DNA from: Deltaproteobacteria bacterium HGW-Deltaproteobacteria-8
GTDB taxonomy: Bacteria; Desulfobacterota; Desulfovibrionia; Desulfovibrionales; Desulfovibrionaceae
NCBI GenBank assembly: GCA_002840405.1
Contig: PHAR01000005.1
Span: 75,894-139,893, forward strand
DNA: 64,000 nucleotides
Reading direction: 5' to 3'
Under the pieces are notes generated by a model. That model was not told the origin of the DNA, searched no databases, and saw only the letters and a list, made by a program, of their open reading frames with translations. Made by a program: the position numbers and the translations under genes. Below, piece by piece: positions 25,349-50,080 of the stretch. Position 1 is the stretch's first letter; every line of letters starts with the position of its first letter.

Positions 25349-25504
25349 GGCCGCCAGGGGCTCCGCCCCTGGACCCCGCCAAAGGGCCTGAGGCCCTCTG
25401 GACTCCCCATTTGGCCGCGAATTCTGCGGCGGTCCCCGCCGAAGAATTCGCGGCGAGTAGATGAGGGGGTTCGGGGGAAATCATTTCCCCCGGCCGCCGG
25501 AGGC
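25349..25504. repeat. modular hairpin repeat element 1
   Basis: A 156-bp gene-free block made of successive hairpins: CCAGGGGC/GCCCCTGG (25354-25372), the palindrome AGGGCCTGAGGCCCT (25383-25397), a 17-bp stem with one mismatch and a 3-nt loop (25415-25453, arms containing GAATTC), GGGGGAAA/TTTCCCCC (25473-25491) and a closing CCGCCGGAGGC. The same modules recur at 26870, 38965 and 49915. It lies between divergent genes, so it cannot act simply as a terminator there. Confidence 0.85.
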
Positions 25505-25537
25505 ATGTTCCCGCAGACCAACCAAAAGCGAGAGCCC

Positions 25538-26854
25538 ATGACAACGTTGATGCTGACCCTGGCCGTTCTGGGCCACCTGCTGCTGGCGGCCCATGCCCTG
25601 CGCCGGGGCGAATGGGCGCTCTGCGCGGCGCTGGTCGCCCTGCCGCTCCTGCTGCTGACCCGGCGCGGCGCGGCGCGGCTCATCGCGGCCTGCGTGCTGG
25701 TGCTGGGCGCGCTGCTCTGGGTCGACGCGGGCCTCGGCTTTGTGCGCCTGCGCCTGGCCCTGGGCCAGGACTGGCTGCGCCTGGCCCTGATCCTGGCCAG
25801 CCTGACCCTGTTGAGCCTGGGCGTCGGCCTGTGGCTGCTGGGCCAGCGCGCGCAGATGCTCTTCAGCCGGGGCCGCGCGCAGGAAATCCCCCAGGCCGTA
25901 GCCTTCGGCCTCACGGCGGGGCTGCTTTACATGGCGCGCTCCAAGGCCAGCGTGCCGCTGCTCCTGGCCGACCGCTTCCTGCCGGGCTCTGGCTGGCTGG
26001 AGATGCTCGCCCTTTCCCTGTATGCCGCCTGGCTGGTTGGCGCCTTCCTGGACCCCGAGCGCCACAAAAAGCTGCGGCCGTGCGTCTGGGCGCTGTTCTC
26101 GGCGGTGTTCTTCGGCCAGCTTGTGCTGGGCCTGCTGGGCCTCCAGGATTTCCTCATGACCGGGCGGCTGCACCTGCCCGTGCCCGCGCTCATCGCCGCC
26201 GGGCCGATCTTCCGGGGCAGCGGGCTGTTCATGGCCATCCTCTTCTCGGCCACCGTGCTCTTCGTCGGCCCGGCCTGGTGCAGCCACCTCTGCTACATCG
26301 GGGCCTGGGACGACGCCTGCTCGCGCCTTGGCCCGAACCGGCCGGAGCCCCTGCCCGCGCGCTGGACGCTCTGCGGCCGCGCCACGACCCTCGCCCTGAC
26401 CTGCGGCGGAGCCCTGGCCCTGCGCCTCCTCGGCGTGGAAACCCTGACCGCCGTCTGGCTGGCCGCCGGGTTCGGGCTCGTCGGCGTCGGCGTCATGCTC
26501 CTCGTCTCGCGCAGGCTGGGCGTCATGGCCCACTGCACCGCCTTCTGCCCCATCGGGCTCCTCGGCAACCTGCTCGGGCGGCTCATCCCCTGGCGCGTGC
26601 GCATCGACCGCGACACCTGCACGCGCTGCCGGTCCTGCTCCCGCGCCTGCCGCTACTCCGCCCTCTCCGCCGCAGACATCGAGGCCGGAACACCGGCGCT
26701 GTCCTGCACCCTCTGCGGCGACTGCATCGGGGCCTGCCCGCACGACTCCATGCACTACCACTTCCCCGGCCTGTCCAATGCCGCGGCCCGCGCCACCTTC
26801 CTGACCCTCATCGCCACCCTCTCGGCCACCTTCCTGGGCGTGGCGCGGCTCTAG
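25538..26854 (+). CDS. membrane-bound polyferredoxin (NosR/NapH-like 4Fe-4S protein)
   Basis: A 438-residue integral membrane protein with about ten hydrophobic segments and two kinds of cysteine motif. CSHLC (near residue 248) and a CTAFC (near 331) resemble the CxxxCP motifs of NapH/NosR/CcoG proteins, and the C-terminal part has two ferredoxin clusters, CTRCRSCSRAC and CTLCGDCIGACP (from about 362 and 390). It probably moves electrons across or along the membrane; the partner is unknown. ATG 25538 is chosen because the hydrophobic sequence starts there; an ATG at 25505 is inside the repeat element. Confidence 0.85.
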   Translation: MTTLMLTLAVLGHLLLAAHALRRGEWALCAALVALPLLLLTRRGAARLIAACVLVLGALLWVDAGLGFVRLRLALGQDWLRLALILASLTLLSLGVGLWLLGQRAQMLFSRGRAQEIPQAVAFGLTAGLLYMARSKASVPLLLADRFLPGSGWLEMLALSLYAAWLVGAFLDPERHKKLRPCVWALFSAVFFGQLVLGLLGLQDFLMTGRLHLPVPALIAAGPIFRGSGLFMAILFSATVLFVGPAWCSHLCYIGAWDDACSRLGPNRPEPLPARWTLCGRATTLALTCGGALALRLLGVETLTAVWLAAGFGLVGVGVMLLVSRRLGVMAHCTAFCPIGLLGNLLGRLIPWRVRIDRDTCTRCRSCSRACRYSALSAADIEAGTPALSCTLCGDCIGACPHDSMHYHFPGLSNAAARATFLTLIATLSATFLGVARL

Positions 26855-26869
26855 CGATGGGAAGAGAGT

Positions 26870-27201
26870 GCCTCCGGCGGCCAAGGGGCCTGAGGCCCCT
26901 TGGAACCCCCGTATGGTCTGGGCCAATGCACCCACGTTTCATGCCCCGGCTTCGCCCAGCCACAAACATGCGCGCGGGTTTTCCGAGGGGGGACCCTCGA
27001 AAAGCCCCGCGCGTGGTTGGCCCCTTTTGAAGCGGAGACGAGAGGCAAAGAGAAAGACGCGCTCCCGTGATTTTCCCAAAGAAAGCCGAAAGGGCTGTTT
27101 CAGGTTCTTCCTGAAACAGCCCTTTCGGCGCAATGGGGAGTCCAGAGGGCCTCAGGCCCTCTGGCGGGGGTGCCGGGGGCGGAGCCCCTGGCCGCCGGAG
27201 G
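26870..27201. repeat. composite hairpin repeat, copy A
   Basis: A 332-bp non-coding element between two convergent genes, bounded by GCCTCCGGCGG and CCGCCGGAGGC. Inside are CCAAGGGGCCTGAGGCCCCTTGG (26881-26903), a CGCGGG...CCCGCG region with complementary GGGGACCCTC-type arms (about 26972-27021), and a perfect 19-bp hairpin (27086-27104 with 27110-27128, loop TTCTT). Then come a GGGCCTCAGGCCC palindrome and GGGGCGGAGCCCC. Copy B at 38965-39360 is the same element in inverted orientation. No plausible protein is encoded. Confidence 0.88.
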
Positions 27202-30200
27202 CTATTCTGTCTTGGCCTTCGTCGACTTCTTGCTCTTCTTCTTTGTTGGCTCGGGCTCATCGGCCTGAGCCTTCTTCTTTGAGGTCTTGCTCTTCTTCTT
27301 GGTCGGCGCCGGTTCCTCGGCCTGTATCTTCTTTTTGGACCGCTTGGACTTGACCTTGGGCAGCGGCTCTGGTTCAGGCTCGTCGTCCATGTCTTCCTCG
27401 TAGGATTCCGAGGACTTCTTGAGGGTCGTCATGCCGAGCATGGCTGTGAGGTTGCGCGGGAAGATGGTCAACGAGCGCGTGAACAGGTCCTGGGCCTGGC
27501 CCGGGTGTCCCTTGCGCAGCAGCGCCCAGCCCATGCCGGACATGGGCGCGGCGTAGGGCGTCTCGGTGTTGTAGGTCCGCAGCCAGTCAAAGGCGTGCAG
27601 GGCCTTGTCGTACTTCTGCTGGTGGAAGGCCGCCCAGCCGAGCTTGTCCATGAGGTGGCTCCACTTGTCCCAGGACGGCGCGGTTTCGGGCGCGCGCGGC
27701 AGGATCTTGTCGAAGGACTTCTCGGCCGTGGCCCAGTCGGCCTGCAGATAGGCCGTGGCTCCAAGGCCGAACTCGGCCTCCAGGTTGGCGGGGTTGGCGC
27801 CGAGGATGCGCTCGAACTCGGCCCGGGCCGGGGCCAGATTGAGGGCGTAGAGCTGGCTCCAGGCGAGGTCCACGTCCAGGCCGCCCAGCTGGAAGTGCCG
27901 GGAAAGCAGCCGCCCCAGCTCCTGCTCGTCCAGGTAGGCCGGGTCGAGGTTCAGGCCGGAGAGCAATTCCTCGCGGGCCAGGCGGGCGTCGCCCAGGGCC
28001 ACCAGGGCGAAGGCCAGCCCGTAGCGCGGGGCGGCCAGGCCGGGGTCACGGGCCACGGCGCGGCGGAAGTCGCGCACGGCGTCGCGCAGGCGGCCTTCGG
28101 TCAGGGCTGCGAAGCCGCTGGCGCTCATGCGGTCCAGGCGTTCCAGGCGCGACTTCGGGGCGCTGTCCTGCACGGCCACGGCCTCCTGATTCTTGCCCTC
28201 ACGGAAAAGCAGGATCACCAGAGCGCGCCAGGCCTGGGCGTTGGTGGGCTCCAGGCGCACGGCGTCGCGCAGGTGGGGCTCGGCCCGGTCCAGGTAGTTG
28301 CGCGAGAGCATGGCCAGGCCGTCGCCCAGATGCGCGTCCGCGTCGTCCTTGTTCACGGTGAGCAGGGTCTGGAACAGGGCGTGGGCCTTGTCCTCCTGCC
28401 CGGCCCAGAAGCTGGCCCAGGCCAGGGCGCGGCGGCCGGAGCGGCTGTTGGGGTTCTGGTACAGGTATTCCTCAAGGAAGGGCGCGGCGGCCGTGGGATA
28501 CAGCTTGCGCGCGTAGGCCTCGCCCATCTCCAGGAACAGCTCGCCGTATTCCGGCCGGGAGCGCATCAGCTCCAGCACTTCCGGGGTGGCGGCAAAGTCC
28601 GGGTACAGGAAGATGGCCTCGGCCAGGCTCTGGCTGGCCTTGTCGGCCTTGCCCTGCTTGGCCAGGGTGATGCCCAGGCCGTAGGCGGCGGCGGGCAGGG
28701 ACGGGTTCAGCCTGCGGGCCTCGGAAAAGGCCTGAAGCGCGTCATCGTAATGGCCCTGGCGCAAGCGCGCCCAGCCCAGGCCGTTCCAGGCCGCCACGGA
28801 GCGCCGCTCCTGGGTGGCCAAACGGAAATACTCGGCGGCCGCACCGTCATAGTCGGCGCGCTCGAAGAGGATCTTGGCTGCGGCCATGCGGCTGTCGACG
28901 TAGTCGGGCCGGGCGCTCAGGGCCGCGCGGAAGTTTTCCAGGGCCTTGGCGGGGTTGCCTTGCGACAGCTCCAGGTGTCCCAGGGTGTTCAGGGCCACGG
29001 CGTTGTTCGGCTCCAGACCCAGGGCCTTGACCAGCAGGCCGCGCGCCGTGCTCGTCTGGCCAAGGGACAGCGTGGCCGCGCCCATGCCGGCCAGGGCGTC
29101 GGCGCTGGGCGAGCCGGAGCCGCCCGCAGCGCGCACGATTTCGGCATCGTTGAAGGCGTCCAGGGCCTGTGCGCTCTGCCCCAGGCGCAGGTGGCTCCAG
29201 CCCATGCCCATGAGGCAGGCGTAGTCCTTGGCGTCCACGTCGTCCAGATAGGACGAGAGCTTGGACAAAGCCTCCAGATAGGCTGCGCGGTGGAAATAGG
29301 CCAGGCCCCAGTCCTTGTTCAGGGGCCGCAGGACCGGGTCTGCGGCGATGGCGCCGTTGAGCGGCTCGACCAGCGTGGGCTCCAAGACCACCAGGCGACG
29401 CAGGGAGGCCAGAGCCTCGGTGACGTTGCCCCGGGCCAGCAGCAGCCGGGACTGGCCCAGCAGGGCCTCGGGCTGGTAGAACTTCCCGCCCGTCAGGCTC
29501 CCGAAGACCGACAGGGCCTGGGCGAGTTCGCCTTTGGCCTCCAGGAGACGGGCGGCCTTGAGCCGCGCCAGTTCGTCCCGCGGCGCATCGCCCTGGAAGT
29601 GTGAGGAGCGCTTTGGCACCTCGGCCCAGGCGGCCAGTGCGCCCTTGGTGTCGCCAGCCAGGCCCAGGGCGTCGCCCAGTGCCAGGAACAGCTCCTTGGG
29701 CGAGGACAAAAGATCCGGGTCGGAGGTTGCGGCCTGGAGCAGCCGCGCGGCCTCGCTGGCGCGGCCCCGGCCCAGGGCGATGAGCCCCTGGCCCAGGCGG
29801 GCGTCGGCGCTGACGGATTCGCGCAGCATGTCCGGCAGGCCGGGCGGCTGGGCGGCGGCCGGGCGGAGGCTCTGGCTCAGGGCCTCGGCATAGAGCTCCA
29901 CGGCGGCGGAGGTGCGGCCCCGGGAAAAGGCCGCCCAGCCGGAGCCCAGCAGGCCCACGGGCTGGAGGGCGGCGTCCTGGCGCACCAGATCGAACTGCTC
30001 CTCGGCCTCGGCCAACTGGTCCAGGCGCAGCAGGGCGAATCCCAGTACCGCGCGCGTGTGCAGCTCCTCGGGAGTGTCGACGTTCCGCGGGGCCTGAGCG
30101 GGCTGCTGCGCCGAGGGCGTGAGGCTCGGGGTCAGGCTGGGCCGGGGCGTGGCGGCCTGGATAGGGGTCGGGGCGGGCAGGGCGTCGCGCAGCACGCGGG

Positions 30201-30360
30201 CGGCCTCTGCGTATTTGCCCTGGCGGTACAGCTCCAGGCCCTGCACGTAGGGCGAGTCGGCCCGGGCCTGTGCGGGGGCGGCCAGAGCCAGGCAACAGGC
30301 GAGCACGAGGCTCAGGGCCAACAGGGGCAGGGTCTTTGGGGCGGGCGGCACGGCGCGCAT
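27202..30360 (-). CDS. large exported TPR protein with lysine-rich tail
   Basis: A 1052-residue protein with a Sec signal peptide (residues 1-34, AxA end) and about twenty tetratricopeptide-like repeats across most of its length, recognisable by repeated A-LGYAF-type helix pairs such as AVALNTLGHLELSQGNPAKAL and AAAYGLGITLAKQGKADKA. Such proteins act as scaffolds in the periplasm, for example in polysaccharide or cell-wall assembly; no catalytic motif is seen. The last 55 residues are lysine-rich and contain two copies of an approximately 19-residue unit (EP-PTKKKSK type). ATG 30360 has AGGAG 5 bp upstream; the GTG 6 bp earlier is less likely. Confidence 0.85.
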   Translation of the reverse strand: MRAVPPAPKTLPLLALSLVLACCLALAAPAQARADSPYVQGLELYRQGKYAEAARVLRDALPAPTPIQAATPRPSLTPSLTPSAQQPAQAPRNVDTPEELHTRAVLGFALLRLDQLAEAEEQFDLVRQDAALQPVGLLGSGWAAFSRGRTSAAVELYAEALSQSLRPAAAQPPGLPDMLRESVSADARLGQGLIALGRGRASEAARLLQAATSDPDLLSSPKELFLALGDALGLAGDTKGALAAWAEVPKRSSHFQGDAPRDELARLKAARLLEAKGELAQALSVFGSLTGGKFYQPEALLGQSRLLLARGNVTEALASLRRLVVLEPTLVEPLNGAIAADPVLRPLNKDWGLAYFHRAAYLEALSKLSSYLDDVDAKDYACLMGMGWSHLRLGQSAQALDAFNDAEIVRAAGGSGSPSADALAGMGAATLSLGQTSTARGLLVKALGLEPNNAVALNTLGHLELSQGNPAKALENFRAALSARPDYVDSRMAAAKILFERADYDGAAAEYFRLATQERRSVAAWNGLGWARLRQGHYDDALQAFSEARRLNPSLPAAAYGLGITLAKQGKADKASQSLAEAIFLYPDFAATPEVLELMRSRPEYGELFLEMGEAYARKLYPTAAAPFLEEYLYQNPNSRSGRRALAWASFWAGQEDKAHALFQTLLTVNKDDADAHLGDGLAMLSRNYLDRAEPHLRDAVRLEPTNAQAWRALVILLFREGKNQEAVAVQDSAPKSRLERLDRMSASGFAALTEGRLRDAVRDFRRAVARDPGLAAPRYGLAFALVALGDARLAREELLSGLNLDPAYLDEQELGRLLSRHFQLGGLDVDLAWSQLYALNLAPARAEFERILGANPANLEAEFGLGATAYLQADWATAEKSFDKILPRAPETAPSWDKWSHLMDKLGWAAFHQQKYDKALHAFDWLRTYNTETPYAAPMSGMGWALLRKGHPGQAQDLFTRSLTIFPRNLTAMLGMTTLKKSSESYEEDMDDEPEPEPLPKVKSKRSKKKIQAEEPAPTKKKSKTSKKKAQADEPEPTKKKSKKSTKAKTE

Positions 30361-30573
30361 GGGCACTCCTTGGGGGAACTCGCCTGGCGGCGGTCAGCCG
30401 GGACTATGCCCCAAGGGGTGCGCTCCCGTCCACAATCTTGATGAGGGGGGCCAGCAACCGAAACGGGATGCCAGGACCGGTTGTCGGCAACAGCGGCCAG
30501 GCCCCTGGCCGGGCAGAATCCGCGCAGGGGCTTGGCCGCCGGGGAAAGAACCTGGGGCCGAGGGTCGGGGCGG

Positions 30574-31059
30574 CTAGCGGGCGGGGTCTTCCGGGGCCGG
30601 GGGCGCGGCCTTGGGCTTGCTCTTGTGCTTTTCCAGCTGCGCGTCGAGCTCCCGGCTCAGGCGCTCCAGCGCCTTGCGGGAGGCCTCCACCATGTTGCGC
30701 AGGGAGTCGCGCAGGGCCTGGCGCGGCGACTTCTCCGCAGAGGCGGGCGCGCCGGGTTCGGCTGCGTTGTCCTGGGCGCTGCCCTGAAAATGGGAGGCCG
30801 CAAGGCCGCGCGAGGTCTCCTCCAGGGTCGCGTGCAGCTCGCGCAGGTCCAGGCGCAGGGCGGCCATGTCCTCCGCGCGGCTGGCCCGCTCCGCGGCGGA
30901 CTCCTGCTCCAGGCGCTCCACCCGGGCGCGCAGGGCTGCGGTCTCGCGCTCCAGCTCGGCCTCGCGCTCCGAGGCGGGCTTCCCGGCGCAGGCCGGGAGC
31001 AGGAGCAGGGCGCAGAGGAGCAGGGCGGCCAGGGCGGCGCTCACATATTTGCTGGGCAT
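30574..31059 (-). CDS. coiled-coil lipoprotein
   Basis: A 161-residue lipoprotein: the signal peptide ends in the lipobox LLPAC, so the mature protein would start at a lipid-modified cysteine near residue 25. Most of the rest is charged, alanine-rich coiled coil (REAELERETAALRARVERLE and later LEETSRGLA), ending in a Pro/Ala-rich tail. Function unknown; such proteins are often envelope spacers or adaptors. ATG 31059 has GAGGTGA upstream; 99 bp of upstream frame lack a signal and are not included. Confidence 0.75.
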   Translation of the reverse strand: MPSKYVSAALAALLLCALLLLPACAGKPASEREAELERETAALRARVERLEQESAAERASRAEDMAALRLDLRELHATLEETSRGLAASHFQGSAQDNAAEPGAPASAEKSPRQALRDSLRNMVEASRKALERLSRELDAQLEKHKSKPKAAPPAPEDPAR

Positions 31060-31090
31060 GGCGGTCACCTCGTGGTTGTCCGGCGCGGGG

Positions 31091-31294
31091 CTACAGGGTG
31101 GCCAGGTCGAGGTCCGGCGAGAACTCGCACTCCGCTTCCTTGGCCATGGCCTGCGCAAGGATGGCGGACCCGCGCACAGGGTCGAAGGAAAGGCTGGGGC
31201 CGCCGTGGAGCTCCCAGCCAGTGTTCAGGGCCAGGCTCACGCGCAGGCAGTTGGCGTCGTCGTCCGGGCCGGTGAAGCAGCGAGACAGTTTCAT
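31091..31294 (-). CDS. DUF1737-like small protein
   Basis: A 67-residue cytoplasmic protein that resembles DUF1737 proteins: MKLSRCFTGPDDDANCLRVS, then NTGWELHGGPSLSFDP, is the family pattern of a small alpha/beta domain. Function unknown. It lies between the lipoprotein gene and the DUF1992 gene on the same strand, 32 and 36 bp away, and may be expressed with them. The AAAGGGGA upstream of ATG 31294 is a fair ribosome-binding site. Confidence 0.7.
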   Translation of the reverse strand: MKLSRCFTGPDDDANCLRVSLALNTGWELHGGPSLSFDPVRGSAILAQAMAKEAECEFSPDLDLATL

Positions 31295-31330
31295 GGCGTC
31301 CCCTTTGCGGAAAGGTCCTTGGCCGTGGCG

Positions 31331-31732
31331 TTATTTCGGGCGCTTGTCGTTGACCGGCACACGGGCCACGACCTTGTCGTAGTATTCCTGCTCGGCCTCC
31401 AGTTGCACCGGGCGGCGGCGCAACAGGTTCAGCCTGGTGATCATCAGGTTCAGGCGCTGCATCTGGCGGTAGCGCTCGGCCTCGTCGGTGAGGCCGGACA
31501 AGAGCTCGCGGGCGGTGTGGATCTCGCGTTGGGCCTCGATCTCCGGGGGCAGGCAGCCTGCGTTCTTCAACACCCGCCAGGCCATGCGCAGGTCCTCGGG
31601 CACGTGGGCGTCGTCGTCCAGGCACAGGGGGCGGCCCCGGCCGGGCAGGGCGTCGAAGTCGCCCTCTTCCTGGGCTTTCTTGATGCGCTCCTCGGCGAGC
31701 CGCTCGATGAAGGCGAGGTTCAGGAAGCTCAT
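31331..31732 (-). CDS. DUF1992 domain protein (DnaJ-C28-like)
   Basis: A 133-residue soluble protein with the DUF1992 pattern: AEERIKKAQEEGDFDALPGRGRPL near the N-terminus and VPEDLRMAWRVLKNAGCLPPE in the middle, also found in eukaryotic DnaJ homologue subfamily C member 28. Function unknown, probably a co-chaperone-like helical domain. The ribosome-binding site is poor (CCCCC upstream of ATG 31732). It starts the three-gene minus-strand group and is divergent from the structured-RNA region. Confidence 0.8.
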   Translation of the reverse strand: MSFLNLAFIERLAEERIKKAQEEGDFDALPGRGRPLCLDDDAHVPEDLRMAWRVLKNAGCLPPEIEAQREIHTARELLSGLTDEAERYRQMQRLNLMITRLNLLRRRPVQLEAEQEYYDKVVARVPVNDKRPK

Positions 31733-31902
31733 GGGGGAAAATTGTGCTTTGCCTGCGCTTGAAAGTCAATGCGCTCCACGGTGGGTGGGCAGGTGTTCCG
31801 GTGGATACGAAAGCATCCCGGGCATGTGGGACAGACTCCATGGACGCGCAAAATCGTGGGCCAGGGTCTTTACATCGTGTCCGGCGTGCTTACCTTATCC
31901 TT

Positions 31903-32230
31903 TACAAGGGACCGGTAAAGTCCCGGTCCGCTCGAAGCGCGGGGCAAAGGCCCGGAGACGAGCGGCAGGGGCGAAGGACCCGCAAGGGGGGTCGCCCGGA
32001 GCAGGGGCCAAGAGGCGGACTGCACGGGGAAAGAGGCCGAAAGGCCGCCGGTCCCAGACGATAACGGCGACAATGCGAAAGGAGGGTAGCCCGGCCTGGC
32101 TGAAAAAGCTCTCAACATATGGCGGATAGAGCCGCCCCTCGCACCAAGAGAGAAAAGTGCGCCGTGACAAAGAGCTCGCGGGTCCCTGGAAGCAGCGGAC
32201 CGGAGATCGCCGGGTGAACCGGCAAGCGGC
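31903..32230 (+). ncRNA. candidate structured RNA in a 598-bp gene-free region
   Basis: The region 31733-32330 has no plausible gene, but its plus strand holds many short perfect hairpins: 31909-31915 with 31923-31929; a GCAA-tetraloop hairpin within 31971-31995; GGCC-GAAA-GGCC at 32035-32046; a three-way junction closed by AGCTCT/AGAGCT (32107-32112 with 32171-32176) enclosing 32121-32136 and 32140-32161; 32181-32201; and 32209-32223. GNRA-type loops favour the plus strand. A TTTACA-N16-TACCTT promoter-like pair (31869-31896) precedes it. No match to RNase P, tmRNA, SRP RNA or a known riboswitch was recognised. Confidence 0.4.
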
Positions 32231-32330
32231 GCACAAACATTTTCCTTGACCCCCGCCCGCACCGTCCAGTACCCGCCCCCTTCAGGGCAAGCTTGCCGAT
32301 ACACCTCCCACTTTGAAGGAGCACCCCCTG

Positions 32331-38964: not shown

Positions 38965-39360
38965 GCCTCCGGCGGACAGGGGCGCTGCCCCTGCACCCCG
39001 CCAGAGGGCCTGAGGCCCTATCGATGCTGTCGACAGCCGTAAGATTCGCGGAAGACCGCTCATCATAACGGCTGACGCCTGGACTCCCCATTGCGCCAAA
39101 AGGGCTGTTTCAGGAGGACCTGAAACAGCCCTTTTGGCTTGTGTGGGTCATGGGGAATCACTGGAGAGCCTCTCTCTCGTTGCCCTTTCACCAATCCTCT
39201 TAAAGGGGGCCAACCGCGCGCGGGGCTTTTCGAGGGTCCCCCCCTCGGAAAACCCGCGCGCATTGCCAGAGCCAAGCCAAGCCGGGACATGGACGTGGCT
39301 GCGCTGGCCCAGGCCATACGGGGGTTCCAAGGGGCCTCAGGCCCCTTGGCCGCCGGAGGC
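38965..39360. repeat. composite hairpin repeat, copy B (inverted)
   Basis: A 396-bp non-coding element between convergent genes; its reverse complement follows copy A (26870-27201) in order and spacing. Shared parts include GGACTCCCCATTG (39081-39093), a perfect 19-bp hairpin (39096-39114 with 39119-39137, loop AGGA), the complementary region around 39208-39255 and the GGGGCCTCAGGCCCC palindrome near 39331-39345. It differs by a 60-bp insertion at 39020-39079, which itself contains the inverted arms CAGCCGT (39034-39040) and ACGGCTG (39068-39074). Confidence 0.88.
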
Positions 39361-42335: not shown

Positions 42336-42371
42336 GGTTGGACTCCGAAAAGCTAGCTTTGGCTGGGCGTG

Positions 42372-42965
42372 TTACTCGGGCTTGGCCAGATAGAGTTCGA
42401 GCAGCCCCGGCGGCGGGTCGATGACGATCTCTTTGCGCTTTGCGTCCAGGCCCAGGATGAACTGGGGCACGGCCGGGAACAGGATCTCCTCGCCGCCCTT
42501 CCCCCGGATGACCCAGGTGATCTGGCCGGGGGTGTCCAGGATGGCCTCGAACACCCCGATCTCCGCGCCTGCGGCCTCTCCGACGTCCGGCAGGAAGACC
42601 TTCGAGCCCAGCAGCCGGAACAGGTATTCCTCGCCCTCGTCAGGCGGGGGCAGGTCGGCCTCGGCGATGTACACCTCGGCCCCGCGCAGCAGGTCCGCCG
42701 CCGTGCGGTCGGGCACGCCCGTCAGCGTCACCAGCATGCGCCCGGTGTGCTGGCGGCTGGCGGCGATCTCAAAGGGCTTGGGCCTGGCAAGGCCGCCGCC
42801 CTTGAGGTTCGGCACGGCCAGGAACAGGGTGCGCCCGGGCGCGAAAAGCAGCGGGGAGCCCGCATGGATGTCCATGCAAAGCTCCCCGCGGATGCCGTGC
42901 GGCTTGGCCACATGTGCCACAGCCACCATGCCGTGCGCGGCTGCGCGCTCAGGCTTGGCGGTCAT
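42372..42965 (-). CDS. rimM: ribosome maturation factor RimM
   Basis: A 197-residue protein that helps 16S rRNA processing and 30S head assembly. The N-terminal RimM barrel is seen in VAVAHVAKPHGIRGELCM (residues about 14-31), the linker and the PRC-barrel part around EYLFRLLGSKVF and PVPQFI-like LFPAVPQFILGLD near the end. The position between khpA and trmD is canonical, and it starts 3 bp after the khpA stop codon. Confidence 0.93.
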   Translation of the reverse strand: MTAKPERAAAHGMVAVAHVAKPHGIRGELCMDIHAGSPLLFAPGRTLFLAVPNLKGGGLARPKPFEIAASRQHTGRMLVTLTGVPDRTAADLLRGAEVYIAEADLPPPDEGEEYLFRLLGSKVFLPDVGEAAGAEIGVFEAILDTPGQITWVIRGKGGEEILFPAVPQFILGLDAKRKEIVIDPPPGLLELYLAKPE

Positions 42966-42968
42966 GGT

Positions 42969-43202
42969 TTATTCGATGATCTCGAGCACGGCGCGGCGCT
43001 TGACCTTGGCCGAGGCTGCGCCGAGCAGGGTCCGCATGGCCCTGGCCGTGCGTCCCTGCTTGCCGATGACCTTGCCCAGGTCTTCTTTGGCCACCTTGAG
43101 TTCCAGCACAGCGGTCTGCTCGCCTTCGATCTCCGTGACCTTCACCTCGTCCGGGTTGTCCACGAGCGATCTGGCGATGTACTCGATCATGTCTCTGAGC
43201 AT
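42969..43202 (-). CDS. khpA: KH-domain RNA-binding protein KhpA
   Basis: A 77-residue KH-domain protein (formerly YlqC/UPF0109). The nucleic-acid-binding GxxG loop is GKQG within [17 protein letters not shown] (about residues 42-58), and the [18 protein letters not shown] start is typical. KhpA-type proteins bind many RNAs and partner with KhpB/Jag. It sits between rpsP and rimM, as in many bacteria, 89 bp from rpsP. Confidence 0.93.
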
Positions 43203-43290
43203 GTCGGGCCTCCCATGATGAATGTGAGCGGGAGAACGAGCCGTGAACGGGACCCCTGCCGCAGAAAACCCAAGCCGCGCGCCTGTTTTA

Positions 43291-43530
43291 CTAGGCGGTC
43301 TGCTTGGAGACCAGCGAACGGACCGTGTCGCTGGGCAGGGCGCCCAGGCCGATCCACTTGTCGTACGCTTCCTTGTTGATGACGACCTCAGCGGGCTCGG
43401 TCATGGGGTTGTAATGCCCCAGGAATTCCAGCGGACGGCCGTCGCGGCGGCTGGCGCGCTCGAGCACGACCAGGCGATAGAACGGACGCTTCTTGCAGCC
43501 CATGCGGGTAAGTCTAATAGTCAAAGCCAT
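43291..43530 (-). CDS. rpsP: 30S ribosomal protein S16
   Basis: A 79-residue ribosomal protein S16. The start [22 protein letters not shown] and the [19 protein letters not shown] block are diagnostic; the length is typical. ATG 43530 has GGGGGAAAG upstream; the open frame upstream belongs to no protein. It follows ffh by 83 bp. Confidence 0.96.
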
Positions 43531-43613
43531 GGTGTCTTTCCCCCTGAATGTGTTGATATGCGGTTTAAAGTCAAAAGGCAAGCGGATCGCCGCCTGCGCT
43601 GTATGGCATGAAG

Positions 43614-45155
43614 TCAGCGCTTTTTGCGCTGCTTCTTGTTCATCTTTTTCTTTTTGCGCTCGGCCAGGGTCTTCTTGGACAGGCCCTTCTTGGCCTCTGC
43701 GCCGCCCATGTCGCCCATGTCCGGCATGCCTGGCATGCCCGCCATGGGGTTGCCCATGGCGTTTGACAGGCCCGGCCTTGCGGCCTGGGGCTTGCTGCCC
43801 GGCGGGGTGTAGCCTGCGGGCATGCCGGGGATCCTGGGCATCTTGGGCTGCTTTCCGCCGCCGCCCAGCATCTGCTGCATCATCTTGTTCATCTGCTCGA
43901 AATTCTTCAAGAGCGCATTGACCTCGCCCACGGTCATGCCGCAGCCCTTGGCGATGCGCGCCCGGCGCGAGGTGTTGATGAGCGCGGGCTCCTGGCGCTC
44001 CTTCTTGGTCATGGAGCTGATGATGGCCTCGGCCTTGTCGATCTCCTTCTCCGGGACCTGCATGTCGCCCATCTTCTTGACCATGCCGCCCATGCCCGGC
44101 ACCATCTTGAGGATGCTCTCGAGCGACCCGATCTTGCGCATGCGGCGCATCTGGGTCAAAAAATCCTCGAGGTCGAACTTGGCCTGCTGCATCTTGGAGG
44201 CCAGCTTCTCGGCCTCCTCCTGCTCCATGGTGCCCTGGGCCTTCTCGATGAGCGTCATGACGTCGCCCATGCCCAGGATGCGGCTGGCCGCACGATCCGG
44301 GTGGAAGACCTCCAGGTCGGACAGCTTCTCGCCCATGCCCACGAACTTCAGGCTCTTGCCGGTGACGCTCTTGATGGACAGGGCCGCGCCGCCGCGCGCG
44401 TCGCCGTCCATCTTGGTCAGCACCACGCCGGTGATGTCCAGGCGCGCGTTGAAGGCCTCGGCCACGGTCACCGCGTCCTGGCCGGTCATGGCGTCGGCCA
44501 CGAACAAAATTTCCTGCGGCGCGCACCGGGCCTTGATGGCCGAGAGCTCCTCCATGAGGGGCTCGTCCAGGTGCAGGCGGCCCGCGGTGTCGAACAGGAT
44601 GGCGTCGCACCCGGCCTCGGCGGCCTTCTTGATGGCGTCGGCGCAGATGTCCGCCGGGTTCATGTCCGTGGTGGACGGATAGGCGGGCACGCCGAGCTGC
44701 TTGGCCAGCACGTGCAGCTGCTCGATGGCCGCCGGGCGGTACACGTCCGCCGGGACCAGGTAGGGCTTGAGCTTGTATTTGGAGCGCAGGAGGTTGGCCA
44801 GCTTGGCTACCGTGGTGGTCTTGCCCGAGCCCTGCAGGCCCACCAGCATGATCTTGACCGGCTTTTGGCGCAGGTCCAGGCCCTTCTGCTCGCCGCCGAG
44901 CAGCTCCACCAACTCGTCGTGCACCAGCTTGACCAGCTGCTGGCCGGGCGTGAGGCTTTTCAGCACATCCGCGCCCATGGCCTTGTCGCGCACGCGGTCG
45001 ATGAAGTCCTTGACGACCTTGAAGTTGACGTCGGCCTCGAGCAGGGCCAGACGCACCTCGCGCAGGCCGTCCTGGATGTTCTTCTCGTCCAGGCGGGCCT
45101 GGCCGCGCATCTTGCGGAAGGCTTCTGAGAGGCGGTCGGTCAGGCTGTCGAACAA
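43614..45155 (-). CDS. ffh: signal recognition particle protein Ffh
   Basis: A 513-residue SRP54-type GTPase that binds 4.5S RNA and signal sequences and targets membrane proteins with FtsY. N domain ([17 protein letters not shown]), G domain with P-loop [15 protein letters not shown] (about 107-121), DTAGR (about 190) and [10 protein letters not shown] (about 246-255), and a methionine-rich M domain (330-440) with a Gly/Met-rich tail. The start is most likely TTG 45155: conserved sequence begins there and a GGAG ribosome-binding site fits. The ATG nearby is in another frame and the next in-frame start, GTG 45200, would add 15 residues. Confidence 0.93.
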
Positions 45156-45248
45156 GTTCTCATCTCCAGTGCGTGCGCTTTGGGCAAAACATTTCCGCAC
45201 CGGCCATCCCGTGAGGAACGGCGCGGCACGGCATAAAAAAGAGACTGT

Positions 45249-45277
45249 GTGTTACATAAGCAGACAGGGCTCGTCAA
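45249..45277 (-). promoter_or_regulatory. candidate promoter of the ffh operon
   Basis: On the minus strand TTGACG (45277-45272) is followed after exactly 17 bp by TAACAC (45254-45249), about 95 bp before the ffh start. The -35 is strong; the -10 is moderate. It would drive the ffh-rpsP-khpA-rimM-trmD-rplS-rnhB-yraN operon. Confidence 0.5.
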
Positions 45278-45333
45278 GGGGGATGAAGGGGGGTGCGCCC
45301 AGGCGGCTTGAGGCTGCGGGACAGGGCATGGGC

Positions 45334-46701
45334 CTATCCGCCAAGCTCCGCGATCCATCTGGCCAGGGGCTCCTCGACCAGCTTGCGGATCTCGGCCAGG
45401 CGGGCCTCGCTCTCGGCCTCGAAGCGCAGCACCAGCGAGGGCGAGGTGTTGGACGCGCGCACCAGCGCCCAGCCGTCGGGGAAGACGAGGCGCGCGCCGT
45501 CGTCGCCCTCCAGGGTGTAGTCCTTGGCGAACTCCACGCGGCAGCGCTCGGCCACCTGGAACTTGGCATGCTCGGCGCAGTCCACGCGCAGCTCCGGGGT
45601 GACGAAGGTCCTGGGCCAGTCGGACAGCAGCGTGGAAAGCGGGCCAGCGGCCCCGGCCACGATCTCCACCAGGCGCAGGGCCGCGTAGGGCGCGTCGTCG
45701 AAGCCGAAGTAGCGGTCGGCGAAGAACATGTGCCCGCTCATCTCTCCGGCCAGGGCCGCGTTTTCCTTGAGCAGGCGGTCCTTGATGAGGGAGTGGCCGG
45801 TGGCGGACATGATGGGCCGCCCGCCGTGCTTGGCGATGTCGGCAAAGAGCAGGTGCGAGCATTTTACGTCGCCGATGATGGCCGCGCCCGGCTTTGCCGC
45901 CAGGACCTGGCGGGCGAAGAGGGTCAGCAGCCGGTCGCCGTGGATGACCTGGGCCTTTTCGTCCACTGCGCCGATGCGGTCGCCGTCGCCGTCGAGCCCG
46001 ATGCCGAGCTCGGCCCCGGACTCCAGCACTGCAGCCTTGAGCGCCACCAGGTTCTTTTCCTCCACCGGATCCGGGTGGTGGTTGGGGAAGCGTCCGTCGG
46101 GCTCGCAGAAAAGCGGGATGACTTCGGCCCCGGCGCGTTCAAGCAGGGCCTTGGTCACCAGCCCGGCCGCTCCGTTGCCGCCGTCCAGCACCACCTTCAC
46201 CCGGCGCGTGACGTTCGCCAGGCCGGACAGGGTGTCCAGGTAGGTGGGCACGATGTCGTGGGCCGTGGCCAGGCCCTGGCCCTGGGGGAAGCCCTTGGCC
46301 GCAAGCAGCCGGGCCACCTCCTGGATCTCGCCGGAGTGGATGGTGCTCTTGCCCGCCCAGATCTTGAAGCCGTTGTACTGGGAGGGGTTGTGGCTGGCGG
46401 TGATCATGACCCCGGCGTCGTAGCCCAGGTGGCGGATGGCGAAATAGCAGACCGGGGTGGGCACCATGCCCAGGAACAGCACGTCCACGCCCGTGCTCGT
46501 CAGCCCGGCCACCATGCGCTCCTGGAAGCCAGGGGAGGTCAGGCGGCAGTCGCGGCCGACCACGGCGCGCTGCGAGCCGCGCGCCAGGAAGTAGGCCCCG
46601 CAGGCGCGGCCCAGGTCCTCGACCCAGTCGGCGTCGAAGTCCTGGCCGACAATTCCCCGGATGTCATAGGCGCGAAAAATGCGCAGGCTGTTCTGGTCCA
46701 T
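45334..46701 (-). CDS. phosphomannomutase/phosphoglucomutase (AlgC/ManB type)
   Basis: A 455-residue alpha-D-phosphohexomutase that interconverts mannose (or glucose) 1- and 6-phosphates for polysaccharide and LPS sugar synthesis. The four domain signatures are present: FRAYDIRGIVG at the start, the catalytic phosphoserine loop MITASHNPSQYNGFK (Ser near residue 102), the metal-binding GLDGDGDRIGAVD (about 241-253), the sugar-binding GEMSGH and the C-terminal phosphate-binding RASNTSPSLVLRFEA. ATG 46701 has AGAGGA upstream. It lies 178 bp upstream of ffh on the same strand. Confidence 0.93.
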   Translation of the reverse strand: MDQNSLRIFRAYDIRGIVGQDFDADWVEDLGRACGAYFLARGSQRAVVGRDCRLTSPGFQERMVAGLTSTGVDVLFLGMVPTPVCYFAIRHLGYDAGVMITASHNPSQYNGFKIWAGKSTIHSGEIQEVARLLAAKGFPQGQGLATAHDIVPTYLDTLSGLANVTRRVKVVLDGGNGAAGLVTKALLERAGAEVIPLFCEPDGRFPNHHPDPVEEKNLVALKAAVLESGAELGIGLDGDGDRIGAVDEKAQVIHGDRLLTLFARQVLAAKPGAAIIGDVKCSHLLFADIAKHGGRPIMSATGHSLIKDRLLKENAALAGEMSGHMFFADRYFGFDDAPYAALRLVEIVAGAAGPLSTLLSDWPRTFVTPELRVDCAEHAKFQVAERCRVEFAKDYTLEGDDGARLVFPDGWALVRASNTSPSLVLRFEAESEARLAEIRKLVEEPLARWIAELGG

Positions 46702-47214
46702 GATCCTCTCAACTGGCTGCACCCGCCCTCTTGCGGCGGGGCATTTGTGCGTGGCGCCTGCTCCAGGTGCCACGCATAGTTTTATGGTGACGTATCCGCA
46801 TAGCACACCACTTGCCGAGAGGGAAGCCTCGCTGCTGTCCGGGCCCCGCTGGCGGCCCCCATCTCTCGGCATTTTCAGGGAAATGCCCTGTGCAGTTGTG
46901 GCGAACGCACCCCCACGTTTTGTGAAGCGTTCTGCACAAACAACATACTTACTTTTGTGTTCCACGTATTGACAGACCTGAATAGTTGTATAGAAGTGCT
47001 ACATTGATCGTACTAAACGCTCTTGCATACTGCGACTATGTCAGAACTGCATCAACAACAATAGGCCTCTTGAACGGCTGGTGGTTCGTTTGTACTTGAC
47101 GTTCGCGATTGGTTGTAATTATTGTTAGCTGAGAAACGAGTCTTCGTGGCAAGCCAATATAGGAACATTTGTTTTTATAAAGCTATATCGAAAGAAAAAT
47201 ATGGAGGTTTAGCG
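46702..47214. other. 513-bp regulatory region, AT-rich in its second half
   Basis: Gene-free region between the divergent phosphomannomutase and S24-like regulator genes. From about 46930 it is clearly richer in A+T than its surroundings. TTGACA at 46969-46974 with TAGAAG at 46991-46996 (16-bp gap), and TTGACG at 47096-47101 with TTATTG at 47119-47124 (17-bp gap), are the best promoter-like pairs for the regulator. I see no complete gene in it. Confidence 0.45.
46748..46776. other. 13-bp inverted repeat upstream of the phosphomannomutase gene
   Basis: TGCGTGGCGCCTG (46748-46760) pairs with CAGGTGCCACGCA (46764-46776) around a CTC loop; one pair is G:T instead of G:C. It is about 50 bp upstream of the phosphomannomutase start and could be an operator or an RNA hairpin in its leader. 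Confidence 0.5.
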
Positions 47215-47940
47215 GTGGCCAAACTTAAGAAGAAGTGCGACGAACGCCTTGAACAGTGGTTCGAGGAGGCCATGGATCGCATCAAGAAAGCCACTGGTGC
47301 CCGGACCCAGGTTCAGCTCGCTGACGTTCTGGAGGTCCGCCAGTCCAGCATCTCCGACGCCAAAAGGCGCTGCTCCGTCCCGTCCGACTGGTTCCTCAAG
47401 CTCTACCGCAGCCACGGCCTGAACCCCAACTGGCTGTCCGACGGCCATGAGCCGGTTTACCTGAACACGACCAAGGGCCACGTCAGCGCCGAGAACCTCC
47501 TGCGCGAGGCACCGGCCGCCTATGGCCGCACCCATGCGCGCGGCCGTGTCGTCCCGGTCTCGTCCATGGCCGGAGCCGGCACTGATTCCGCCGCCTGGCA
47601 GCCCCAGTCGGTTGAGGACCTGACCATCCCGGAGACCTTCTTCCGGCCGAACCTGCAGGTCTTGCGCGTGGACTCCCCGGGCATGGAGCCTGTGATCCTG
47701 CGCGGCGCCTTTGTGGGTGTGGACCAGGACCAGCGCCAGCATCCTGACGGCGACCTGTGCGCCGTGCACTTCCCCCACCAGGGGCTGCTCATCCGCCGCG
47801 TGTACTACCAGGATGGCCAGTTCGTGCTCAAGGCTGAGGACAAGGGCCACGCCGACCTGCACGTGCCAGCCGCCGAGATGTCCGAGCGCACCCTCGGTCG
47901 CGTCATCTGGGTCATCCAGAGCCTGGCCCCGCAGGCCTAG
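47215..47940 (+). CDS. phage-repressor-like regulator, HTH plus degenerate S24 domain
   Basis: A 241-residue regulator with a CI-type helix-turn-helix start (TQVQLADVLEVRQSSISDAK, about residues 27-46; WFLKLYRSHGLNPNWLSDG typical of the CI-repressor domain) and a C-terminal LexA/S24 signal-peptidase-like domain from about 105. The nucleophile position of the usual GDSMEP motif is a glycine (SPGMEP, G156), and the lysine of LLVKR is an arginine (R194), so self-cleavage is unlikely. Start GTG 47215 has GGAGG upstream. No prophage genes surround it; it may be a domesticated repressor. Confidence 0.87.
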   Translation: MAKLKKKCDERLEQWFEEAMDRIKKATGARTQVQLADVLEVRQSSISDAKRRCSVPSDWFLKLYRSHGLNPNWLSDGHEPVYLNTTKGHVSAENLLREAPAAYGRTHARGRVVPVSSMAGAGTDSAAWQPQSVEDLTIPETFFRPNLQVLRVDSPGMEPVILRGAFVGVDQDQRQHPDGDLCAVHFPHQGLLIRRVYYQDGQFVLKAEDKGHADLHVPAAEMSERTLGRVIWVIQSLAPQA

Positions 47941-47967
47941 CAACCAGCTCCTTGCAACACCAAGCGC

Positions 47968-47995
47968 CCCCCCGGCCCAGTCCGGGGGGTTTTTT
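47968..47995 (+). terminator. Rho-independent terminator
   Basis: CCCCCCGG (47968-47975) and CCGGGGGG (47982-47989) form a perfect 8-bp stem with a 6-nt loop, followed at once by TTTTTT. It ends the S24-like regulator transcript. Confidence 0.9.
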
Positions 47996-48106
47996 GCGCA
48001 CGGCATGGGGTCCCGTTGCCAGCTCCTGGCGCCAACCGGCTGTTGCGCCGATATATCCTCGACGTGGCGCGGAAGTTGCTATTCCTTCGGCAGCAAGGAG
48101 GACGCC

Positions 48107-48346
48107 ATGAACGCCCTGGTTGAACCCCAGCCCCAACACAGTCTGCCCACCGAGATGTACCGCGTCTATGAGGCCACGGACCCCTTCCACGAGCGGCCCT
48201 ACCGCCTGGCCCTGTGCCTGGCGCGCGAGAAGTGCCTGATTGAGGACATCAACTCCGGACGCAGGCTCATGCGCCTGGGCCGCATGGTCATGGAGACCCG
48301 CGAGGCGGCCCTGGCCTGCGCAGGAGCCGAAGCCCTGTATCTCTGA
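48107..48346 (+). CDS. small protein of unknown function
   Basis: A 79-residue soluble protein, no family recognised. The sequence is rich in Arg, Leu and Glu, with helices such as RLALCLAREKCLIEDI. ATG 48107 is preceded by AAGGAGGACGCC, a very good ribosome-binding site, which supports it as a real gene. It is a single gene between a terminator and an exported protein gene. Confidence 0.7.
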   Translation: MNALVEPQPQHSLPTEMYRVYEATDPFHERPYRLALCLAREKCLIEDINSGRRLMRLGRMVMETREAALACAGAEALYL

Positions 48347-48459
48347 CCCGTGCTGACGCGCGGGGCTGACCGGGAAAATAAAGTGTCGTCAGGTCTTGAT
48401 TTCCCCGACCACTCGGGCCAAGATGCCACACAGATACACACTTTTTGCCCGGAGGCTCC

Positions 48460-49101
48460 ATGCGTTGCACCCTGGCCGTCCCCGCCCTGACGGCGTGTTT
48501 CATCCTTGCCCTCGCCACGACCTGCCTTGCGAGTGAAGCCCAGGCCACAGCCCAGGCCACAGCCCAGGAGGCTGCCCTTGCGGCCCAGGCCGCGGCCCTC
48601 CCCGAGCCCGCAGCCGCCATCCCCGCGCCCCCGGCCGGGACCAAGGCCCCTAGCAACATCGACACCCCGCCGGCCTTCACCAGGCGGCCCGTGGCCAGGA
48701 ATAGGCCGGTCCGGCCTGACCTGACCTTTGCCGTGAAGCCCGCGCCCGTCGAGTTCCGTGGGCTGGCCTGGGGCAGCGACCTGGAGCGGATTCCGGGGCT
48801 GCTCCCGGTGACCAAGCCCGTGACCCTGGCCGGCACCTTCTTCCGCCCCGACGAGACCCTGCGCCTGGGCGAGGCCGAGATCCGCTCCGTGGCCTACTAT
48901 TTCCCCAAGGGCAAGCTCACGGGCGTGGGCATCATCTTCGAGGGCCAGGACAACTTCTTCCTCCTGAAGGACCACCTGATCGAGCTCTACGGGCCGGGCC
49001 GCCAGATGGGCGACCGCTACGGCTGGACCTGGAACAACTTCTTCATCGATCTGCGCATGCGCGAGAATCTGGGTGAGCTGCGCTACGCGACCCAACCCTG
49101 A
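48460..49101 (+). CDS. exported protein of unknown function
   Basis: A 213-residue protein with a Sec signal peptide (residues 1-25, CLA end), then an Ala/Gln/Pro-rich low-complexity linker with the tandem AQATAQAT-type repeat, then a compact domain from about residue 90 (PVEFRGLAWGSDLERIPGL and GVGIIFEGQDNFFLLKDHLI). The final part is similar in style to small periplasmic domains that follow a linker, but I recognise no family. GGAGG lies 5 bp before ATG 48460. The GGDEF-type gene follows 20 bp later. Confidence 0.75.
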   Translation: MRCTLAVPALTACFILALATTCLASEAQATAQATAQEAALAAQAAALPEPAAAIPAPPAGTKAPSNIDTPPAFTRRPVARNRPVRPDLTFAVKPAPVEFRGLAWGSDLERIPGLLPVTKPVTLAGTFFRPDETLRLGEAEIRSVAYYFPKGKLTGVGIIFEGQDNFFLLKDHLIELYGPGRQMGDRYGWTWNNFFIDLRMRENLGELRYATQP

Positions 49102-49121
49102 CCTGAGCATGGGGGCCGGCA

Positions 49122-49898
49122 ATGGCTGAAGATCCCGCAGCGCCACGGGCGCAAACGCCCGGCAGGGGCACGGCCCTGCTCTATGCCGCCACCCTGGTGG
49201 GCCTCTTCGGGGTGCTCCTGGCGGAATTCTTTGTGGCCTACCAGCTCCTGGCCGACCACCCCACCCACTCCCCCGGGCTCATCAAGGAGACCTACGGGGC
49301 CATGCTGCTCGGCGTTGCCCTGCTGGCGGGCCAGGGCGTGCTGGTGTACGCCGGGCTGCTCCGGCCCGTGCGCGAGAACTCCCTGGAGATCGCCCGGCTG
49401 AAGGAGTCCCTGGACAAGCACTGCCACCACGACGAGCTGACCAAGGTCCTGAACCGCATGGCCTTTGACCACATGATCGTGCGCGATCTGGAGAGCCTCA
49501 AGCGCTATGGCGCTGGCTTTTCGGGCATCATGGTCGACGTGGACAGCTTCCGGGCCGTGAACGATTCCCTGGGCTACGACGCGGGCGACCAGGTGCTCTA
49601 CGAGCTGGCCCAGCTGCTCAAGCAGCACATCCGCAAGGCCGACTGCCTGTTCCGCTGGCGCAGCGGGTGCTTCCTCATCCTGGCGGCAGGCATCGAGGCC
49701 GACAGGGCCCAGCTCTTCGCGGACAAACTTGGCGAGCTGGTGGCAGGGCACGAGTTCCACCATGGGGCGCGCATCGGCGTGACCTTGGGCGCTGCCCAGG
49801 CCGAGGCCCAGGACACCCCGGAGATCTTCATCGCGCGCGTCAAGACCGCTCTCTCCCTGGCCAAGGACAAGGCCCGCGCGCTGCCGGGACCAGAATAG
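49122..49898 (+). CDS. membrane protein with degenerate GGDEF domain
   Basis: A 258-residue protein with two N-terminal membrane spans (about 19-42 and 61-80), a short coiled coil and a GGDEF-type domain (HHDELTKVLNRMAFD start, DVDSFRAVNDSLGYDAGDQVL). The active-site GGDEF stretch is replaced by RSGCF (residues 180-184), so it should not make cyclic di-GMP; the first metal aspartate region is kept. A role as a GTP- or effector-binding sensor is possible. It follows the exported-protein gene by 20 bp, probably one operon. Confidence 0.87.
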   Translation: MAEDPAAPRAQTPGRGTALLYAATLVGLFGVLLAEFFVAYQLLADHPTHSPGLIKETYGAMLLGVALLAGQGVLVYAGLLRPVRENSLEIARLKESLDKHCHHDELTKVLNRMAFDHMIVRDLESLKRYGAGFSGIMVDVDSFRAVNDSLGYDAGDQVLYELAQLLKQHIRKADCLFRWRSGCFLILAAGIEADRAQLFADKLGELVAGHEFHHGARIGVTLGAAQAEAQDTPEIFIARVKTALSLAKDKARALPGPE

Positions 49899-49914
49899 GA
49901 AGACACCCGCATGG

Positions 49915-50080
49915 CCAAGGGGCGCTGCCCCTTGGCCCCGCCCAAGGGCCTGAGGCCCTTGGGAATCCCCATATGGCTGCTGTTTCTGCGGCGGGAAACG
50001 CCGCAGAAACAGCAGCGAGCATATGCGGGGGTCCGGGGGGAATCATTCCCCCCGGCGGGGTGCAGGGGCGGAGCCCCTGA
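49915..50080. repeat. modular hairpin repeat element 4
   Basis: A 166-bp gene-free block with the same modules as elements at 25349, 26870 and 38965: CCAAGGGGCGCTGCCCCTTGG (49915-49935), CCCAAGGGCCTGAGGCCCTTGGG (49941-49963), a perfect 18-bp hairpin with GGAAA loop (49976-49993 with 49999-50016) framed by two CATATG motifs, GGGGGGAAT/ATTCCCCCC (50035-50052) and AGGGGCGGAGCCCCT. It lies between two genes in the same direction, where it may also stop transcription. Confidence 0.85.

Follow-up and report, generated by a model that had tools for sequence, protein, structure and literature searches.

What are the hairpin-rich sequences that occupy four intergenic sites (25349-25504, 26870-27202, 38965-39360 and 49915-50080) in a stretch of 64,000 nucleotides from Deltaproteobacteria bacterium HGW-Deltaproteobacteria-8, and how do their hairpins come to differ from site to site? 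The stretch (the window; G000:C4:75894-139893) belongs to a sulfate-reducing, Humidesulfovibrio-type bacterium, whose genome (G000) comprises 3.51 Mb in 13 contigs. A first-pass annotation had taken the four sites for a non-autonomous repeat family built from shared modules around an exchangeable central hairpin. We found that they belong to a family which is present throughout the genome and placed mostly behind genes. The sites are largely inherited and their content is renewed; position and hairpins evolve separately. Tentatively, and with a confidence slightly short of even, we regard the elements as composite palindromic 3'-end repeats whose hairpins would be renewed by palindrome copying at the DNA level.

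A genome-wide family of composite palindromes behind genes

Inspection of the window recovered every module that the first-pass annotation had described, each where it had been placed. With up to one mismatch allowed, GGGCCTSAGGCCC occurs 7 times in the window as compared to 0.87 times expected from shuffling; 6 of the 7 copies are exact, and all 6 lie within the four sites. For CCGCCGGAGGC, 5 copies were found as compared to 0.30 expected. A whole-genome search had been proposed, and modules occurring nowhere else, or only as GC-rich terminators without shared order, had been named as the outcome that would speak against a family. The search revealed 85 exact sites of the H2 sequence GGGCCTGAGGCCC in G000 as compared to 1 site for the reversed control, and 106 sites of CCGCCGGAGGC as compared to 11 for its control; the order of modules and linkers is shared. 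Copy number and grammar thus bear out a non-coding repeat family with common modules. A search of the window against Rfam at gathering thresholds gave 0 matches, and no paper on this repeat family was found in the open-licence literature, either by topic or by sequence string.

The anatomy of the elements was drawn from the fetched parts of G000, in which 87 GGCCTSAGGCC sites, including a few chance matches, were found. Each element is a composite unit of 150-400 bp with several distinct hairpins and pairing linkers, and the shells are symmetric in the sites read (modules are listed in Table 1). Because the linkers on opposite sides of an element are mostly complementary, a short-type element is able to fold as a cross. 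The short type contains a single core hairpin, mostly with a stem of about 20 bp, and the long type carries Ha (GCGCGCGGGTTTTCGAG...) and Hb (GCCGAAAGGGCTGTTTCAGG...) flanked by two shells. In the window, 25349-25504 and 49915-50080 are of the short type (80% identity across 139 bp); 26870-27202 and 38965-39360 are of the long type, in mutually opposite orientation. The single long central hairpin ascribed to all four sites was found at two of them, the other two having two hairpins each; the end tag is missing at 49915-50080 and present at the other three sites.

Single-strand folds, computed for three of the four elements (all except 38965-39360), were 6 to 12 standard deviations below those of shuffled sequences. 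The z-score was -6.1 for the DNA fold of element 1 (25370-25504), -12.2 for the DNA fold of element 4, which is cross-shaped with paired linkers, and -10.5 for the RNA fold of element 2. Two copies (L046, L065) are coreless, with linkers abutting directly. In one further shell (L066 1509-2057; G000 C2 near 210458-211065), the position of the core hairpin is occupied by an AT-rich open reading frame (ORF) of 178-182 aa, for which no Pfam match was found. Outside some elements (L014, L016, L024), the end tag GCCTCCGGCGG is repeated in tandem at intervals of about 26 bp.

Gene contexts were classified for 59 of 72 clusters in G000, of which 29 are convergent, 28 tandem and 2 divergent; 6 clusters were called inside an ORF (the call at window 25349 is a caller error, and C1:131622 looks like a chance match), and 7 lie at the edges of fetched stretches. 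As compared to the gene pairs of the window, convergent contexts are enriched (29/59 vs 9/55, p 0.0003), and a depletion of divergent contexts was not significant (p 0.11). Stop distances were counted for the 57 tandem or convergent clusters, that is, with the 6 inside-ORF, 7 edge and 2 divergent clusters set aside and overlaps entered as 0 or 1. In 51 of the 57, a stop codon is no more than 40 bp away. Of 86 edges toward gene ends, 69 are at most 40 bp from the stop, as compared to 8 of 28 edges toward gene starts within the same distance; these placement counts are not fully independent since some elements are split into two clusters.

The first-pass annotation had concluded from mixed gene contexts that the elements are not simply terminators. 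This argument is not supported in the form given, with 57 of 59 contexts convergent or tandem; the divergent window site 25349-25504 is an exception. Since the elements lie mostly a few bases behind stop codons, it is probable that they terminate transcription or protect the ends of mRNAs, in many cases serving two convergent genes together. Hb scores as terminator-like. Among 7 terminator-like sites between 25000 and 27700, Hb of element 2 has the most pairs; it is read on the minus strand and has the T-rich tail TTTCTTTGGG.

Kept sites with changed hairpins in related genomes

Four relatives were searched for the flanks of 18 elements. In G004, both flanks were found together at 11 of the 18 sites and apart at 6 (some near contig ends), and a single flank was found at 1. 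Among the 11 joined-flank sites, 9 are occupied, one (el43) has a plain hairpin with a T tail and one (el47, with 2.1 kb between the flanks) was left unread; thus, 9 of 10 readable syntenic sites carry an element. Separated flanks suggest rearrangement at the repeats. At two of the six sites with flanks apart, the flanks lie on the same contig yet far from each other or inverted.

For 28 of the 72 clusters both flanks were present in fetched G004 loci, which were mostly picked for holding the repeat and are uninformative on absence. From these 28 orthologous intervals 19 multi-hairpin pairs were selected and sorted by eye. The modules differ between G000 and G004 in 17 of the 19 pairs, with hairpins replaced in 14, inverted in 2 and the type switched in 1; "replaced" means that at least one hairpin was replaced, gained or lost. 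Inversion in el16 and el37 concerns the inner unit, with the outer parts staying in place; el46 is of the short type in one genome and of the long type in the other. The remaining two, el6 and el15, have the same modules in both genomes with mostly both-arm changes. The flanking genes at orthologous sites are mostly 80 to 95% identical.

The left arms of Ha had a mean identity of 0.574 in 8 orthologous pairs as compared to 0.588 in 118 non-orthologous ones; two of the 8 sites (29 and 64) are bad extractions with no Ha in one genome, which are also among the 118 others, so that 6 pairs are left, one of them identical. The core differs between orthologous sites, and its Ha arms are no more alike there than elsewhere; the exchangeable core of the first-pass annotation was thereby supported. 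At el43, G000 and G002 share identical flanks (...CTCAGTACGC and GCTTTTGGGGGGCA) with entirely different hairpins between them. Furthermore, variants recur at separate sites within one genome: two asymmetric Ha variants each occupy 5 sites of G000 and are missing from the G004 loci that were fetched. For a TTGAGC tip, with every hairpin entering the count once per strand, G000 gave 4 matches and G004 gave 16. The core arms of el62 in G004 were found at no other fetched locus of G000 or G004.

Two window sites were followed through further relatives. At site 25349, the orthologous place is empty in G013 and G001, holds only an H1-like hairpin in G008 and is occupied by differently built elements in G011 and G012. 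The orthologue of 38965-39360 is remodelled in G002, split in G012 and without recognised shell or core in G008. In the split G012 copy (L154), the long-type halves lie about 1.7 kb apart with apparently gene sequence between them, and a piece resembling the upstream gene end is duplicated beside one half (both by eye).

The stems of the family change on both arms. Eleven short-type cores, those with a CGGCGG-type tip out of 19 extracted (8 omitted, one degenerate), had 95.8% of cells paired and both-arm changes at 11 of 33 pairs, and 0 of 500 shuffles reached such a value. Of 38 Ha found, 29 have 42 nt and 19-bp stems, and 25 of these are distinct; they were obtained with a pairing filter that favours perfect stems and treats G.T and A.C alike. 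In these 25 Ha, 98.5% of cells are paired; both arms had changed at 14 of 19 pairs (0 of 500 shuffles as high) and a single arm at one. One pair shows a G-C to C-G swap in 12 of the 25 with no intermediate. Transversion-type changes account for 37 of 94 doubly changed Ha cells in a set that was extracted by context alone and includes at least 3 unrelated sequences.

Without the pairing filter and with tighter ends, 28 Ha contained 514 Watson-Crick, 2 G.T, 9 A.C and 7 other cells. Hb hairpins, each counted once and oriented (61 of 72 orientable, at least 14 of 20 pairs required), contained 1193 Watson-Crick, 9 G.T, 11 A.C and 7 other cells. G.T not exceeding A.C fits maintenance at the DNA level, since G.T would be expected to be commoner than A.C if nothing but the RNA of one strand were preserved; this is an argument and not a test against a null.

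Exact H2 counts in the 14 other genomes of the genus range from 0 (G001, G003, G014) to 79 (G004), and 44 genomes from other genera of the family and order have 0 to 4 (controls at most 3). A count of zero does not always mean absence of the family because G003 has another hairpin version on the same linkers: it contains 14 such sites with different hairpin tips (GGGCATTCGCCC and similar in the 10 listed), and in the five that were read a core hairpin follows, different in all five. In Methylobacterium dankookense, 15 linker-pattern sites were found, 14 of them with the loop ATGAT (control 0); ten that were read stand in strings of hairpins, mostly near a gene end by eye. A broad linker pattern was present in 2 of 395 genomes of the phylum (G000 and G003) and in 1 of 190 genomes in the class of M. 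dankookense, namely that genome itself. Judged from these matches, the exact linker pattern is not widespread; other dialects would escape the search.

A 28-base H2-plus-linker pattern was found in at least 99 stretches of named genomes. Among the matches listed are metagenome-assembled genomes (MAGs) of Humidesulfovibrio, other deltaproteobacterial, Desulfovibrionales and Proteobacteria MAGs, one Desulfovibrio sp. MAG, one M. dankookense contig and one contig of a 'Bacillota' MAG whose sample name resembles that of another match. Similar GC-rich hairpin strings are familiar from other proteobacteria and from clostridia. Plasmid and phage collections searched with one long-type element gave no match, nor did the viral contigs of IMG/VR searched with one 28-base pattern, and a plasmid, phage or viral origin was rejected on these grounds.

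Copying, transposition and termination as possible explanations

In the reading that we favour, the content of the elements would be renewed by DNA copying between and within element copies. The shared shell could serve ectopic conversion, and template switching within palindromes would rewrite both stem arms in one step. There is a published precedent for the latter in RNA genes, in which template switching makes and repairs hairpins (PMC8794818). Those hairpins resemble the present family in that both arms change in one event and stems are repaired at the DNA level; they belong to RNA genes, whereas the present family consists of interspersed repeats.

Several points weigh against this reading. 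The range of exact H2 counts from 0 to 85 within one genus suggests that sites are gained somehow, and conversion between existing copies does not readily create new ones; some form of spread may have taken place. As the named relatives are MAGs, chimeric assembly could account for some swaps. Gene contexts were obtained with a rough ORF caller, and the divergent window site departs from gene-end placement. The orientation used for G.T and A.C is that of the element, not of the transcript, so that their counts would also be evened out if transcription directions were mixed. Inversion of the loop, which is expected of template switching, is rare: the TTCCT loop was found in 2 of 34 oriented Hb in G000 and in 1 of 27 in G004. 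Loop flipping as the main process was rejected on this count.

The putative role in transcription termination meets difficulties as well. Many family hairpins, including Ha and several short-type cores, have no T tail. A hairpin scan covered eight empty orthologues, distributed over six sites. Where G000 carries el43, a plain hairpin with a T-rich tail was found in G004 and G008. For el47 and el56 in G008 and el18 in G012 a hairpin but no T-rich tail was found, and the empty sites 25349 (G013, G001) and 26870 (G012) contained no hairpin with stems of at least 7 and loops of at most 14. In this small sample, a plain terminator was apparently replaced by an element at one site of six, and such replacement is not general; our confidence in the favoured reading is lower because most empty sites are without a plain terminator. 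At the empty 26870 site of G012 a hairpin with a longer loop was seen by eye.

A further reading, possible but clearly less probable than the favoured one, describes the family as hairpin cassettes with reversed mobility. Sites would stay fixed for species-level times, and hairpins would be exchanged, inverted and copied from site to site by DNA-level palindrome copying; species-specific dialects would be built on a linker grammar that recurs across phyla (Humidesulfovibrio, Methylobacterium). If this were true, such cassettes would represent a transposase-free spread of repeats through gene ends.

Somewhat less probable still, and on balance unlikely, is a non-autonomous mobile element (REPIN- or MITE-like) served by a so far unseen transposase that reads the terminal hairpins and is targeted behind stop codons or to terminators. 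The wide span of H2 counts within the genus and the emptiness of some orthologous sites argue for such an element, as do the symmetric ends with a common tag, a weak preference outside the ends (AATA at 14 and GGAT at 12 of 84) and the one shell in which a 178-aa ORF replaces the core. However, no trace was found of the linkage to a RAYT or TnpA_REP-like gene that the first-pass annotation had considered: Y1_Tnp, the sole transposase family surveyed, had no match at an E-value of 0.001 in any of the 15 genomes of the genus, 7 of which are less than 90% complete (controls positive in 5 of 14). A RAYT link was therefore rejected for G000 and the genus.

The tags of known families were rare as well: GTAG, as in RAYT-type REPs, was near just 6 of 84 E ends and 1 of 87 H2 sites, and CGTC, as in CGTC-REPs, near just 2 of 84 E ends and 2 of 87 H2 sites. 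Target-site duplications were not found in the 14 elements bearing E at either end: their flanks share no direct repeat of more than 2 nt, as in shuffled pairings. Furthermore, sites that are kept while their contents differ are the reverse of what transposition leaves behind. From the idea of a non-autonomous mobile family the repeat family and its changing core are supported; the RAYT link and classic insertion, with no duplication and 9 of 10 readable G004 sites occupied, are not.

Ordinary terminators or mRNA stabilisers, maintained by selection at the RNA level with point mutations compensated singly, appear improbable as the explanation. Placement behind stop codons, covariation in the stems, the terminator-like Hb and the el6 and el15 orthologues, with the same modules and mostly both-arm changes, are consistent with them. 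They would not lead us to expect that G.T is no commoner than A.C in element-oriented counts, that at one pair G-C turned into C-G without intermediate in 12 of the 25 Ha, that whole modules are replaced and inverted at orthologous sites or that the same asymmetric variant stands at 5 separate sites; moreover, the shared shell sequence is superfluous in this model. That unrelated GC-rich terminators are alike by chance or composition, which a GC-rich genome with short hairpins easily spotted by eye might suggest, can be dismissed, being refuted by the genome counts (85 exact sites vs 1 reversed) and the shared order of modules and linkers.

Among known systems, REPINs resemble the present family in having two inverted palindromes around a middle part and in forming populations within genomes. 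Known REPINs are RAYT-dependent, and in the genus studied here no Y1 transposase was found. BOX elements of pneumococcus are modular (boxA-boxB-boxC); like the present family they are interspersed intergenic repeats with a variable middle, which in the present family is a long hairpin whose sequence differs by site. REP/BIME and CGTC-REP sequences (PMC3733652) are likewise small, high-copy intergenic palindromes, often in inverted pairs and mostly behind genes in convergent or tandem context. The present family differs from them by its composite units of 150-400 bp, pairing linkers and exchangeable long core, by the rarity of GTAG and CGTC, by the lack of Y1_Tnp matches and by changes of content at kept sites. 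High-copy intergenic palindromes behind genes are REP-like in the broad sense, and the present family is of this kind; it is unusual in its composite build, in its separately evolving positions and hairpins, in its placement mostly behind genes and, to the extent searched, in having no transposase of the usual type.

Repetitive hairpin-forming elements of sponge mitochondria, with which double-hairpin elements and yeast GC clusters are grouped as similar, also invade intergenic regions, diverge in structure and composition and differ greatly between close relatives (PMC2800124). The present family resides in a bacterial chromosome, not an organelle, and hairpin exchange at kept sites is not stated in the relevant part of that paper.

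REP-like repeats are often attributed to a dedicated transposase; the CGTC-REP superfamily is without one (Di Nocera 2013, PMC3733652). In the present family the same sites can be compared across species with flanking genes roughly 80 to 95% identical, which makes two ideas testable, namely copying and correction of palindromes at the DNA level during replication and cassette replacement of gene-end hairpins. Furthermore, hairpin covariation alone is no proof of selection at the RNA level.

Window elements and minor observations

The four elements, the insert in element 3 and the recurring modules are listed in Table 1.

Table 1. Elements of the window with their parts, and the modules of the family (positions refer to the window)
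Feature	Position	Strand	Description
Element 1, short type	25349..25504	+	H1 25354-25372, H2 25380-25400, core hairpin 25413-25454, H4' 25472-25492, E' (CCGCCGGAGGC) 25494-25504
Element 2, long type	26870..27202	+	E 26870-26880, H2 26881-26903, Ha 26970-27014, Hb 27085-27129, H2' 27142-27164, H1' 27172-27192, E' 27192-27202
Element 3, long type, opposite orientation	38965..39360	-	E 38965-38975, H1 38977-38993, H2 39002-39019 (interrupted by insert), Hb 39095-39138, Ha' 39216-39261, H2' 39327-39349, E' 39350-39360
59-bp insert, second small repeat, within H2 hairpin of element 3	39020..39078	+	First 43 bases exact at 3 places in G000 (fetched parts), always directly after CCCT
Element 4, short type, without E tag	49915..50080	+	H1 49915-49935, H2 49941-49963, core hairpin 49976-50016, H4' 50033-50055, H1' 50063-50079
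Module E			GCCTCCGGCGG(CC), in tandem at times; frequent tag at element ends
Module H1			CAGGGGCTCCGCCCCTG or near form, linker GACCCCGCC
Module H2			AAAGGGCCTGAGGCCCTTT or variants in outer pairs, linker GGAATCCCCAT
Module H4			GGGGGAAATCATTTCCCCC plus linker

The 59-bp repeat inserted in element 3 (ATCGATGCTGTC...GGCTGACGC) was also found at L049 and L050. At least 2 of its 3 copies lie in a hairpin arm, and a fragment was seen at a fourth place; possibly, it is a second element that targets these hairpins.

Directly beside element 2, the 3' end of the adjoining gene contains two tandem units of 57 nt (27217-27330), and the length of this stretch is apparently variable among relatives (by eye). 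Two tandem-like copies of 300 nt with 73% identity are located at 62105-62945. Finally, the region 11247-11852 contains repeated TGCCGCTCCTGCCAC-like units which read as CxxCH haem motifs; perhaps it is a multihaem cytochrome gene.

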